Positions 1,648 through 32,589 of a stretch of DNA of 34,840 nucleotides are shown here, in pieces. Source of the stretch: a virus; the IMG/VR virus record IMGVR_UViG_3300019884_000008, positions 1 through 34,840 of that record; one strand, 5' to 3'. The stretch's first letter is position 1; each line of letters begins with the position of its first letter. The notes under the pieces are model-generated. The model did no database searches. It had not been told where the DNA came from and saw nothing but the letters and a program-made list of their open reading frames with translations. The position numbers were made by a program, and so were the translations under genes.

Positions 1648-3210
1648 ATGGAGCACGACGTAGAATTTGAACGACGATATCAAGCCGCGATGGCTCAGGC
1701 GCGGCAGTTATCCAAGAGGCTTGAAGGACCGAGCCTCGCCGAGCGGATCGCCCGTCTCCCATTCGAGGCAAGAGGCGAGATCCTTTCCCACTTCGGCGGA
1801 ATCGACCTTGCCCGCTTCCGACACGATTGGGGCGTATGGGCCCGCCCGAAACAGGATCCAGATCTCTCGAGCATCGTGCACCGGATCTGGTTTCTCCTCG
1901 GCGGTCGTGGCAGCGGCAAAACGATAGCCGCCGCCCACCGACTTGGACGTCGAGTGCAGGCCGGTGCGCGGAGCATTGCAATCGTCGGTCCGACGTTGCG
2001 AGACATCGAGCGATATCAGATCAAGGGCGAGGGCGGCTCCGATGGTGTGCTCACCGTCTTTCCGCCGAACAAGCAACCGGAATACAAGCCGCACAAAGCG
2101 CTCGTCTTCTTTCACCGTCCGGCGTGCACCGGTTGTCCGAGCGCCGAGGACTGCGGAGGCGCGATCGCGTACATCAATTCAGCGGAGGATCCAGAATTCA
2201 GGGGCCCGAACCTGGACACCGTTTGGTGCGACGAGCCGGCGAAGTGGCGCTACCTATCTACGATTTGGCACAACATTGAGCTCGCGACTCGACTCCGGGG
2301 GCCCTTACCGCTCGAGATCATTTTGACCGGTACGCCGCTCCCCTTGCAGCTCTTTCGCGAGATCATCGTCGACGAAGAGACCATCACCATCCTGATGTCC
2401 CAAGCAGAGAACGAGTCGAACCTCGACCCGCATTACCTCGCCAGGATGGAGCGCAAATATGGCGGCACGCGGCTCGGCCGTCAGGAGCTCGAGGGCGAGA
2501 TCCTTACCGACAACCCTGACGCGCTTTTCCAGGCGTCGATCCTCGACGCCACGCGAGTCGAGTCCGCGCCGGCGCTCGAGGATGTCGCCGTCTCAGTCGA
2601 TCCCGCGATTGCTCAAGGGCCCGACAACGACGAGACCGGGATCATCGCCGGCGGTCGCGACGCCGCCGGGCACATCTACATTCTCGCCGACGTTAGCTCC
2701 CGAGCGCGACCGGAGAAGTGGGGCGACGACGTGATCAAGGCGTGCACGCAACACGAGTGCGATACGGTGATCGGCGAACGGAATCGCGGCGGCGACCTAG
2801 TGGCCGCGAACGTTCGAAGCGCGAAGCAGCGCGCGCATGGCGTCATCGCCGGCCAAGCGATCAAGATCGTCGAAGTGCACGCCACGCGCGGAAAGCTGAT
2901 CCGAGCTGAGCCGGTGGGCGCGCTGAGCGATCGCGGGATGATCCATATCGTGGGTCGCCTCCCGGAGCTCGAGCAGGAGCTCACTGAATGGAACCCGCGC
3001 ATCGGTGGTCGCAGTCCGAGCCGGCTCGACGCGCTGGTGTGGCTGGTTTGGTACCTCGCGCGGCTCGGCGAGGAAGAAAAGCCCGACTATCGCGCCGGGT
3101 TCAAGGGACTGCGGCAAGCTTCGGCGGCGATGCGGGGGCCGGCACGCCCGTCGGCGGCGTCTGGCTTTGCGGCGGCGCTACCACGGTGGCCGGGGGGATC
3201 AAAACTTTGA
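1648..3210 (+). CDS. Phage terminase large subunit
   Basis: This 520-aa protein is the packaging motor: an ATPase that translocates DNA into the procapsid and a nuclease that cuts the concatemer. Walker A is GGRGSGKT at residues 85-92, Walker B is TVWCDE with acidic residues 195-196, and the coupling motif is ILTGTP near 226-230. The C-terminal RNase H-like nuclease starts with VSVDPA (Asp318). Between Walker A and B sits a small Cys cluster (C160, C163, C169; CTGCPSAEDC) that is not part of the core fold and might bind a metal. The last 37 codons are overlapped antisense by the end of the portal gene, and both proteins are low-complexity Pro/Ala there. Confidence 0.93.
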   Translation: MEHDVEFERRYQAAMAQARQLSKRLEGPSLAERIARLPFEARGEILSHFGGIDLARFRHDWGVWARPKQDPDLSSIVHRIWFLLGGRGSGKTIAAAHRLGRRVQAGARSIAIVGPTLRDIERYQIKGEGGSDGVLTVFPPNKQPEYKPHKALVFFHRPACTGCPSAEDCGGAIAYINSAEDPEFRGPNLDTVWCDEPAKWRYLSTIWHNIELATRLRGPLPLEIILTGTPLPLQLFREIIVDEETITILMSQAENESNLDPHYLARMERKYGGTRLGRQELEGEILTDNPDALFQASILDATRVESAPALEDVAVSVDPAIAQGPDNDETGIIAGGRDAAGHIYILADVSSRARPEKWGDDVIKACTQHECDTVIGERNRGGDLVAANVRSAKQRAHGVIAGQAIKIVEVHATRGKLIRAEPVGALSDRGMIHIVGRLPELEQELTEWNPRIGGRSPSRLDALVWLVWYLARLGEEEKPDYRAGFKGLRQASAAMRGPARPSAASGFAAALPRWPGGSKL

Positions 3211-30009: not shown

Positions 30010-31563
30010 CTACCGGCTGGATCGCCCGTCTTCCGCGTCCGGGTAGGCCGCTTTGATTTGCGCCGCGGTGGCGGTCGGAACGAGCACCTGTTCGGCGAGC
30101 CGGGTCGCTCGACTGTACGTGCGGGTCTCCGAGCTCTTAACCTCTCGGGCCAACCGAACCAGGTCCGAGTTCAGCACGGCATCCGCCAGCTCGACGGCGT
30201 AACGGTCGGCCAGGCGGCTACGGCTCTTGACGGCGCGGAGGTAACGCTCCGCCAAATTGGCCCAAACTTGGCCCAAAACACCAGCTATCGCAGCGAGATC
30301 GTTGGACCGGGCATGGCACTCCGGAGCCGTAGGTCCCCGGTTCAAATCCGGGGTGGCGCGCCCTTGTTTTCCAGTGGTTTCCGCGTCTGTGGACAAAATA
30401 GCCTGGGCCAATATTGGGCCAATCGTCCCCGAGCCCGCGTCGAGGATCGCGGCCGGGGCGAGGTGGGCGTAGCGCTCAGTCACATCGACCGAGCTGTGCC
30501 CCATCACCTCCCGCACCTCCTCGAGACGCCAGACCCGGCCCCATACGCCGGACACGAGGGACGAGCCGAACGTGTGCCGAAGCTCATGCCACTTGATGTG
30601 GCGAGCGATGCCGACTTTCTTACGCCACTCGTCCCAGCCGGGCGCATCGGTGACGCGCCGTCCTCCATCCTCAGCGGGCCACACCAGGCCGAGGGGGTTC
30701 TTCGGGCAGTACGCGGGCAAGAGTGCCAGCCACGCCTTGATGGCGCGGAGTGCTGCCCCGAAAAGCGGGACCGTCACCCACTTCACTTTCTTGCCGACGC
30801 GACGCTTGCGCATCTTGAATCGAAAGTAGGGTTGCGGAGCGTCGAGGTGCAGCTCGTCGAGCTTCAAGTCCCATTGGTCCTGTCGGCGCTGCCCCCCGCC
30901 GTACGCGAACATCACCGCGTAGTAGAGAAAGTCGGGCACGCCGTCCGCGTTCTCCCATCGGCGCTGATCGTCGAGCTTGAGATAATCCCATTCCGGCTCG
31001 TCGAGCCCCGGCACCTCGACGCCGTCGGCCGGGTTGCTCTCGATGATGCCGTCGAGCTTCGCCTTCTCGAGCGCCACTCGTAGCAGGTTCAGGCAATGCT
31101 TGGCGCTCGCCGGCGAAACCTTGCGTGGTCGTCGGCGCGCCCCATACCGAAGGTCCTTCGTCTTCTGCCTCAAGAGCCACTTGACCCAAGCGCGAACGGC
31201 GACCGCGGTCACGGCCGCCATCGGCCAGTCCGCAAACTCAGCAGCGAGGATCCAATTCTCCCATCGGCCGCGGTCCGTCTTGATGTTCTTGACCTTGTCG
31301 ATCAGCTCTCGGTCGTCGAGGAAGCCATCACCGAAGGTGCGCAACGACTGCCCTGTCGTCCACCCGCCGGACGTCGACGCGACCGCGAAGAAGTCGTCAA
31401 GCGCTTTGGCCGCCTGGTCCTCGCTATCGAAGATACCGAGCGTCGGCTTTGAACCATCGGGCTTGCGGACGCGCGCGCGGTGGCGGTCGCCGTACTTTTC
31501 GATGATGCCACTCCCATAAATGCGCTTGGGATCTTTCAGGTCAGAGCTTTCGGCGTATGTCAT
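30010..31563 (-). CDS. int: Tyrosine integrase with attachment core inside its coding sequence
   Basis: This 517-aa tyrosine recombinase has an AP2-like N-terminal arm-binding domain (KYGDRHRARVRKPDGSKPTL), a core-binding helical domain, and a catalytic domain with Arg226/227 (YGGGQRRQDQW), HELRHTFGS (His326, Arg329), GHSS (His356) and the nucleophile Tyr365 in ERYAHLAP. Residues ~401-415 (GRATPDLNRGPTAPE) are the antisense reading of a tRNA-Arg 3' half, the crossover core. About 102 residues follow the core. Integration would keep the catalytic residues but replace this tail, as reported for Mx8. The ATG overlaps the upstream stop (ATGA), so it is the last gene of the early operon. Confidence 0.93.
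   Translation of the reverse strand: MTYAESSDLKDPKRIYGSGIIEKYGDRHRARVRKPDGSKPTLGIFDSEDQAAKALDDFFAVASTSGGWTTGQSLRTFGDGFLDDRELIDKVKNIKTDRGRWENWILAAEFADWPMAAVTAVAVRAWVKWLLRQKTKDLRYGARRRPRKVSPASAKHCLNLLRVALEKAKLDGIIESNPADGVEVPGLDEPEWDYLKLDDQRRWENADGVPDFLYYAVMFAYGGGQRRQDQWDLKLDELHLDAPQPYFRFKMRKRRVGKKVKWVTVPLFGAALRAIKAWLALLPAYCPKNPLGLVWPAEDGGRRVTDAPGWDEWRKKVGIARHIKWHELRHTFGSSLVSGVWGRVWRLEEVREVMGHSSVDVTERYAHLAPAAILDAGSGTIGPILAQAILSTDAETTGKQGRATPDLNRGPTAPECHARSNDLAAIAGVLGQVWANLAERYLRAVKSRSRLADRYAVELADAVLNSDLVRLAREVKSSETRTYSRATRLAEQVLVPTATAAQIKAAYPDAEDGRSSR
30319..30363 (+). other. attP: attP core: 3' half of tRNA-Arg(CCG)
   Basis: The plus strand reads as the anticodon-loop-to-3'-end part of a tRNA: loop CTCCGGA with anticodon CCG, stem GCCGT, variable AGGTC, T-arm CCCGG-TTCAAAT-CCGGG, acceptor strand GTGGCGC, G and CCC. 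The 5' half is absent upstream, where ATGGCA does not complete a 7-base loop. Phages that integrate at tRNA genes carry such a 3' fragment so the tRNA is restored after insertion. It lies within the integrase gene, about 36 codons after the catalytic tyrosine. Confidence 0.88.
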
Positions 31564-31778: not shown

Positions 31779-31990
31779 GGCGGCGGCCACAGGCAAAGCT
31801 GTCGTCGTGCTAGTCGCCCGATCCCCTTCGTCGGCACACCCGCCGGGCACCATGCCGGCTCATTCGCGGGCTCTTCCCAGTCGGCGAGCGGGTCTTCCCT
31901 TGGGTGCGGCTCGACGAACCCGCCCCCGACGTCGTCGGCGCGCTTCTCGTCGTTCCGCACGGGGGATCGCGCGCGTCCGTAGGGGCTCAT
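31775..31990 (-). CDS. Small unrecognised protein of the early operon
   Basis: This 71-aa open frame is coupled by ATGA to the J-domain gene upstream and by GTGA to the next gene. It is acidic and Pro-rich (VEPHPREDPLADWEEPANEP) with little predicted structure. Continuous overlaps on both sides are the main argument that it is translated. No function is suggested. Confidence 0.45.
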   Translation of the reverse strand: MSPYGRARSPVRNDEKRADDVGGGFVEPHPREDPLADWEEPANEPAWCPAGVPTKGIGRLARRQLCLWPPP

Positions 31991-32589
31991 GTCGACACAC
32001 CGCTTTCGTGGAAGGCGACGTTGATAGCGGACATGCGTGACGCGTCGCCTCCGCGGTCAGGGTGGTGCTCTTGGGCGAGCTCGCGATACCGGCGCCGTAT
32101 CGTTTCGGAGTCAGCGTCGACGGATACCCCGAGCGTCTCCCACCATGGCGCCCCCGTCTTGGCTCGCTTCGGTGGCAACGCAGCGAATCCAGTGAACGCC
32201 TGCTCGAGCATCGACGACGCGCCGTGCCGCTGGATTGAGCGCAGCGCTTCGACCGTTGCTCCGATGGCGCGCATGTTCCACCGCACTTTGCAGTATGTGT
32301 CGCAGGCAATGACGAACGGGCGAAGGTCGGCACCGATGCGCCGATCGAAGTACACGGCCACTCCGGGATCTTGCGGCTCGGGCATGTTCGCGTAGGGCAA
32401 GCCGTCTTGCCGAAGCGCGACGTTGCTCGACAGCACGAAGCCGCGCCCGCCGAGGAGGTCAATCGACCGCAAGAGCTCGTTGCGAGCACGGGCAAAGTCG
32501 ACCTTGAAGGCGGCGTCGTGCCGCTGGTGAGACGGCGTGCGCGGTTGGCCAGTGGGCCAGGTCAGTGGATAGCGTTCCGCGGAGCTCAT
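31987..32589 (-). CDS. Phage J-domain (DnaJ-like) protein
   Basis: This 200-aa protein begins with YPLTWPTGQPRTPSHQR, a lead found in phage proteins of this type, followed by a ~100-residue domain (ELLRSIDLLGGRGFVLSSNV, then GVAVYF...RPFVIACDTY). The C-terminal 50 residues are a J domain, WETLGVSVDADSETIRRRYR with the HPD tripeptide at 176-178. J domains stimulate the ATPase of host DnaK, so this protein would recruit the host chaperone to a phage target through its N-terminal domain. There is no Gly/Phe or zinc domain. It lies in the recombination operon. Confidence 0.75.
   Translation of the reverse strand: MSSAERYPLTWPTGQPRTPSHQRHDAAFKVDFARARNELLRSIDLLGGRGFVLSSNVALRQDGLPYANMPEPQDPGVAVYFDRRIGADLRPFVIACDTYCKVRWNMRAIGATVEALRSIQRHGASSMLEQAFTGFAALPPKRAKTGAPWWETLGVSVDADSETIRRRYRELAQEHHPDRGGDASRMSAINVAFHESGVST

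Follow-up and report, generated by a model that had tools for sequence, protein, structure and literature searches.

The stretch of DNA analyzed here (the window) is a linear virus record of 34,840 bases from IMG/VR (IMGVR_UViG_3300019884_000008) without detectable end repeats. On its minus strand, positions 30010–31563 are occupied by a tyrosine integrase gene (int) in its free (attP) form, an open reading frame for a protein (Int) of 517 amino acids that matches Pfam PF00589 over residues 215–370 (E = 1.1e-13) and PHROG 1, integrase (E = 2.9e-40). The catalytic domain (residues 215–370; 30454–30921, minus strand) is delimited by the Pfam match, by Foldseek and by its invariant residues: R226, H326-x-x-R329 and Y365 are complete in the window Int and invariant across its relatives, with the codon of Tyr365 located at 30469–30471 (minus strand) from its position in the reading frame. 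An AlphaFold2 model of Int was mostly confident for the recombinase proper (residues 20–370), and Foldseek placed it close to the integrases of Tn1549 and lambda (E about 1e-10). Residues 20–64 (31372–31506, minus strand) are predicted to form three strands and a helix, and we refer to them as a putative N-terminal arm-binding domain because the fold is like that of lambda/Tn916-type integrases. Residues 377–424 (30292–30435, minus strand), with pLDDT values below 50, are predicted to be a disordered linker; as this flexible segment holds the residues encoded by the attP core described below, a swap of sequence there would leave the catalytic domain undisturbed.

To the left of attP the window carries a virion protein and the terminase large subunit (1648–3210, plus strand; assigned by Pfam and PHROG), and on the far side, to the right, an exonuclease VIII-like phage gene (33091–33984, minus strand; PHROG 412, E = 3e-58; DUF3799). 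Since phage genes flank attP on both sides, the phage in the window was not opened at attP; this and the uninterrupted int bear out the claim of an earlier note on this DNA that the sequence is not integrated at this site. Near int lies a gene for a DnaJ-domain protein (31987–32589, minus strand; PHROG 9210), which was considered as a link between this phage and myxophage Mx9; the idea was dropped, as the window protein shows no similarity to the DnaJ-like gene product of Mx9.

Antisense to int, at 30319–30363 on the plus strand and overlapping the codons for residues 401–415, lies the 3' half of a tRNA-Arg(CCG), the presumptive attP core. It reads, in order, CTCCGGA (anticodon loop, with CCG), GCCGT, AGGTC, CCCGG-TTCAAAT-CCGGG (T arm) and GTGGCGC-G-CCC (acceptor), with five pairs in the T arm, GTGGCGC as acceptor strand and a G as discriminator. 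The core is in frame with int and begins 36 codons past Tyr365, exactly as the earlier note had described, and 102 residues remain after it. The anticodon loop (30319–30325, plus strand) is the probable crossover region, a position in the window that we infer from the divergence of free and integrated relatives at this loop. Allowing as many as 3 mismatches, a 37-base segment of the core had no second match in the window, nor did any of 100 shuffles contain one; the likeness to a tRNA is therefore not a product of chance. Neither ARAGORN nor Rfam reported a complete tRNA in the window, as would be expected because only half a tRNA is present.

The core is framed by four copies of the motif TTGGCCCA, two of them on the minus strand on the catalytic side of the core (candidate P' arm, 30404–30423) and two on the plus strand on its C-terminal side (candidate P arm, 30256–30275), the sites of each pair being 11 bp apart; the whole window holds five copies, as against 0.39 expected. 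In a scan for an inverted arrangement of two plus two sites spaced 11 bp, with 54 as the top score, the window reached 51 and the 100 shuffles at most 34, with p-values to be taken as rough because the shuffles preserved base composition alone. Arm-type pairs beat all of their own shuffles in 8 of the 18 attPs scanned (those of the window and of seven related free integrases), and in most of these eight the pairs lie about 66–81 bases before and 74–82 bases after the core start. The arm motif differs from phage to phage while the pair geometry recurs, and this recurrence of a geometry with unrelated motifs is a stronger argument than the shuffle p-values. With two inverted repeat pairs flanking the core, a complete arm-core-arm attP thus appears to sit inside int, which makes it likely that a lambda-like attP of about 170 bp, its repeats serving as putative Int sites, is contained wholly within the coding sequence.

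The earlier note had looked to a host tRNA-Arg(CCG) identical to the core, and none turned up: the exact 41-base core matched none of 84,980 genomes and no viral contig, and a search of one Myxococcota order (184 genomes) gave nothing within 3 mismatches. When the pattern was relaxed in the T arm and acceptor, 66 stretches were retrieved from genomes, largely of Myxococcota and Acidobacteriota, with tRNA-Arg(CCG) genes matched in dozens of genomes. The 17 nt from the anticodon loop to the variable loop are the same in all of these matches because the pattern fixed them, and the tRNA-Arg(CCG) matches differ from the window in the T arm and acceptor. These parts are supplied by the phage itself. 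The acceptor strand GTGGCGC is common to the window, three Myxococcales genomes (L019, L051, L060) and one delta-proteobacterial genome (L043).

Integration was then simulated with the 5' halves of 13 Myxococcota tRNA-Arg(CCG) genes, a fourteenth (L060) having been left out as it is cut by a contig end. Joined to the window half, they gave a complete tRNA-Arg(CCG) in 13 of 13 cases, and in all 13 the simulated int read ...TAPEAVALSS followed by a stop, at a length of 421 aa. The stop after AVALSS arises because the conserved D arm of the tRNA is read backwards. The earlier note had proposed that the last ~102 residues would be swapped for host-encoded sequence; 102 residues do follow the core, but the replacement comprises only AVALSS and a stop. 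As the tail swap comes down to six residues before the antisense D arm supplies a stop, integration would in effect truncate Int from 517 to 421 aa. Relatives of the window Int were detected (E 1e-15) in 27 of the 379 Myxococcota genomes searched, and the 297 Acidobacteriota genomes had none, which points to a myxobacterium as the probable host; a prophage of the window phage itself was not found in the genomes searched.

Chromosomal relatives allow the consequences of integration to be followed directly. Of 29 such relatives, 25 run into or end beside a complete antisense tRNA, and in 17 of those 25 the stop codon of int is inside the tRNA; the copies L078, L092 and L100 stop short of it. Targets are tRNAs for Arg (four anticodons), Asp, Lys, Gly, Thr, His and Met, among others. 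The assignment of tRNA-Arg as the target in the earlier note agrees with four relatives (L093, L094, L096 and L099) that have tRNA-Arg(CCG) as attB. Both ends of one element are preserved on a single 10.75-Mb contig (genome G369). This 15,826-bp element occupies a tRNA-Arg(CCG) and has perfect 46-bp repeats; at one end int runs out within the tRNA, and at the other the severed C-terminal domain follows the far repeat in the same frame. Joining the ends in silico produced one open Int frame of 553 codons, and removing the element in silico left an intact tRNA-Arg(CCG). Three more genomes combine an int that lies at a tRNA with an orphan C-terminal domain that follows a second copy of the matching tRNA part; the repeats are perfect for His (66 bp) and Asp (46 bp) and 92% identical for Arg(CCG) (103 bp). 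In three of the four split pairs the halves are on separate contigs, and in the Asp pair (G007) int appears frameshifted. At the level of sequence, these relatives show integration to truncate Int and to orphan its C-terminal domain, and rejoining of the ends to restore Int. As to its content, the 15.8-kb element of G369 (L211, 1730–17601) encodes a DnaB-like helicase and has only a weak terminase match, and could be either a satellite or a prophage in decay.

A single-sequence search of viral contigs with Int gave no confirmed match, and viral relatives were recovered by using an alignment of relatives as query. Six of them, from the first scan, have only the antisense 3' half of a tRNA inside int, followed by 48–96 residues; a further viral relative (L125) is already in the integrated form. 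Free forms could be matched with integrated or contig-end counterparts in three instances. L214 (free) and L215 (at a contig end), both at tRNA-Arg(CCG), share 64% protein identity. L214 has the 3' half only, followed by a C-terminal extension like that of the window (...LAERVLRAVAGRSRFAGRLAVQFADAFL; window counterpart LAERYLRAVKSRSRLADRYAVELADAVL), and the Int of L215 ends at the contig end with ...TAPEAVALSS, identical to the tail simulated for the window. The detached C-terminal domain was sought in the L215 contig and is absent from it, the contig stopping at the tRNA. L221 (free) aligns with L220 (with a complete tRNA-Trp) over 4.2 kb at 74% identity, the two diverging in the anticodon loop, and L229 (free) and L227 (contig end) constitute the third pair. 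The Int C terminus had been expected by the earlier note to differ between integrated and free forms, and relatives in the two states indeed diverge from the core onward. The extensions of the free forms L122–L124 and L127 are without recognizable similarity to the window C-terminal domain, and in some free forms (L122–L124, L127 and L237) the extensions are short or unrelated. A search among known phages returned distant integrases only and an uninformative terminase.

Some relatives depart from this simple layout. The free integrase L236 carries the 3' half of a tRNA-Thr(CGT) in sense direction, which is antisense in its close relatives. A Myxococcales contig from lichen (L031) has three tRNA-Arg(CCG) 3' halves (923–963, 2059–2099 and 2818–2858), about 0.8–1.1 kb apart and each with a short 5' piece, perhaps the outcome of stacked integrations or a repeat family. 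On contig SECP01000048 (L035, L007) an integrase-like frame enters a tRNA-Arg(CCG), and the displaced 3' half has a different T arm, which suggests that phages replace the host tRNA 3' half with their own version.

The part of Int that would be lost on integration is a helical C-terminal domain of approximately residues 431–500 (30064–30273, minus strand), defined by a profile HMM and by the helices that AlphaFold2 places after the linker with moderate confidence. The HMM was rebuilt because the seeds of its first version had partly been chosen by likeness to the window tail; the final version was made from four relatives found solely via the catalytic domain and was searched against 11,220 frames. 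It recovered the window tail with E = 4.8e-9 (6.8e-5 without L214) and the orphan tails L106 and L115 with 6e-13 and 8e-11, respectively. Single-sequence searches of genomes with this domain ran into a tail of chance matches and became specific only with an alignment, and no Pfam family scored above its cut-off. Relatives carry the domain downstream of cores from different tRNAs, and the reading frame also varies; in L115 (G128:C76), with a tRNA-Ser half, and L068, with a tRNA-His 3' end, it stands behind a core in sense direction and thus occurs with either target orientation. In the closely related pair L122/L124, pN/pS was 0.44 for the post-core part, 0.86 for the core and 0.30 for the catalytic part, ratios by which the region behind the core is under purifying selection. 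The codon-position GC of the window tail fits the coding frame. A two-fold repeat within the domain is merely suggested, at an hhalign probability of 65% obtained with hand-cut units.

We favor the following interpretation, to which we assign a probability of somewhat below 0.8: attP lies inside int, Int is complete as long as the phage is free, integration splits int and drops the conserved tail, and the short Int favors stable lysogeny. The free phage would synthesize the 517-aa Int including its conserved helical C-terminal domain, which may render the enzyme proficient for integration during infection. Recombination would occur at a host tRNA-Arg(CCG), with the crossover probably in the anticodon loop, and would rebuild the tRNA from the host 5' half and the phage 3' half. 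The catalytic part of the integrated int would then read antisense into the tRNA, gain the six host-encoded residues and stop at 421 aa, leaving the C-terminal domain stranded without its gene at the opposite prophage end. Loss of the domain might provide the lysogen with a shorter, weaker or redirected Int and in this way favor stable lysogeny; the short Int kept in the lysogen may still serve excision, upon which the long Int would be restored. For the window phage itself the anatomy and the split are predictions; in relatives both are shown by the genomic arrangement. A role of tail loss in locking lysogeny would be in line with the analogy to Mx8, where neither Int nor its tail is a clear homologue of the window counterpart.

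The split might also be real and yet have no regulatory meaning, in that int and attP form a compact module, the C-terminal part being passive read-through over the P arm, and both Ints act alike. The P arm (30256–30275) lies within the extension and would constrain its DNA, the core-encoded part is predicted to be disordered, and short or unrelated extensions are what some free forms have (L122–L124, L127 and L237). Speaking against a passive overlap are a conserved domain behind cores of different tRNAs and reading frames, the purifying selection after the core in L122/L124, a codon-position GC in the window tail that fits the coding frame, and the helices predicted after the linker. This conservation of the tail weakens the explanation, and we regard it as unlikely. 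Quite unlikely in our view is the converse case, in which the C-terminal domain restrains or destabilizes Int in the free phage, and its removal upon integration yields a more active or more stable Int. There is a precedent in the BPs repressor, where a degradation tag on the long viral form is removed by integration (PMC4557955). The window tail, however, ends in ...AEDGRSSR, without an ssrA-like end or recognizable tag, and the integrated form of Mx8 Int is reported (PMC4701971) to be less rather than more active. That the tRNA half is a relic or a chance likeness, with the phage integrating elsewhere or never, would fit the lack of an exact host tRNA and of prophage context in the window, yet is extremely improbable in view of a 45-nt tRNA-like stretch with a paired T arm and complementarity to real host acceptor stems, a 37-base segment without chance match, arm sites in attP geometry and relatives that have demonstrably inserted at this tRNA.

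Very few elements have been described whose integrase gene harbors the att site, with Mx8 being named among them (PMC4701971). In the integrase clade considered here, att within int is the usual layout, it involves tRNA genes for at least 8 amino acids, and both states can be found in sequence data. The findings indicate a conserved, as yet undescribed domain that is present or absent according to the integration state. The long and short Ints of this clade also form natural pairs for asking if recombination takes its direction from the tail swap. In practical terms, annotation pipelines will enter a single phage as two distinct integrases plus an orphan ORF. On a wider scale one might imagine a broad clade of Myxococcota phages in which a detachable Int domain reports integration, attP within int switches the enzyme form, and the arrangement has moved among tRNAs and reading frames, a tentative generalization that we consider doubtful at present. 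If true, one DNA rearrangement would toggle the enzyme between an integrating and a lysogen form, in both directions.

Among the systems closest in layout is that of myxophage Mx8, which has tRNA-Asp as its target and whose intP/attP was reportedly described by Tojo in 1996 and Magrini in 1999; we compared it by means of the sequences D86464 and NC_003085. In both phages attP lies within a tyrosine integrase gene, past the part for the catalytic domain, and has a 3' part of a tRNA as core and a tail behind it (112 residues in Mx8, 102 in the window) that is swapped on integration. The core, however, covers 29 bp from the T arm in Mx8 and 45 bp from the anticodon loop in the window, and the replacement tail has 13 residues in Mx8 and 6 in the window, where the target is tRNA-Arg(CCG). 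According to PMC4701971, integration of Mx8 trades the 112-residue Int tail for 13 residues and renders the product less active, the integrated Int being alternatively described as changed in specificity in PMC6070905. The two Int proteins are 23% identical along a 90-aa stretch (E = 3e-5) that lies outside the catalytic domain, and the C-terminal HMM matched neither Mx8 Int nor Mx9 Int. Judged by this weak similarity, the unlike tail and the different core start, the window Int falls outside the Mx8 Int homology group. The label Mx8-like given by the earlier note thus applies to the working principle, the split being seen in relatives, and not to Int and its tail, which are no close Mx8 homologues. 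Mx9, likewise a myxophage with a tyrosine integrase (OQ709411), integrates on a similar principle according to the review PMC6070905; its Int differs in having 31% identity to that of the window over merely 71 aa, and our scan recognized no tRNA half in the Mx9 int.

Related solutions exist outside the myxophages. The integration-dependent immunity of mycobacteriophage BPs (PMC4557955) resembles the window in that attP is inside a coding gene and integration shortens the product and changes its activity. The gene concerned is that of the repressor in BPs and int in the window, which is therefore not of the BPs type. In streptococcal ICEs that reside in rumA (PMC4701971), the att site is again in the integrase gene and the excised form has a different C terminus. 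The enzyme there is a serine integrase, in contrast to that of the window, and a tRNA target is lacking. A tRNA-Arg gene is used by SSV1. The archaeal suicidal integrases of the SSV1 and pNOB8 type equally have att in the integrase gene, which is split by integration (PMC8371274). Whereas the split disables the archaeal enzymes, an Int of the window type would lose its tail only; given that the core begins 36 codons past Tyr365 and that integrated relatives retain an intact catalytic domain, the window Int is not a suicidal integrase of the SSV type.
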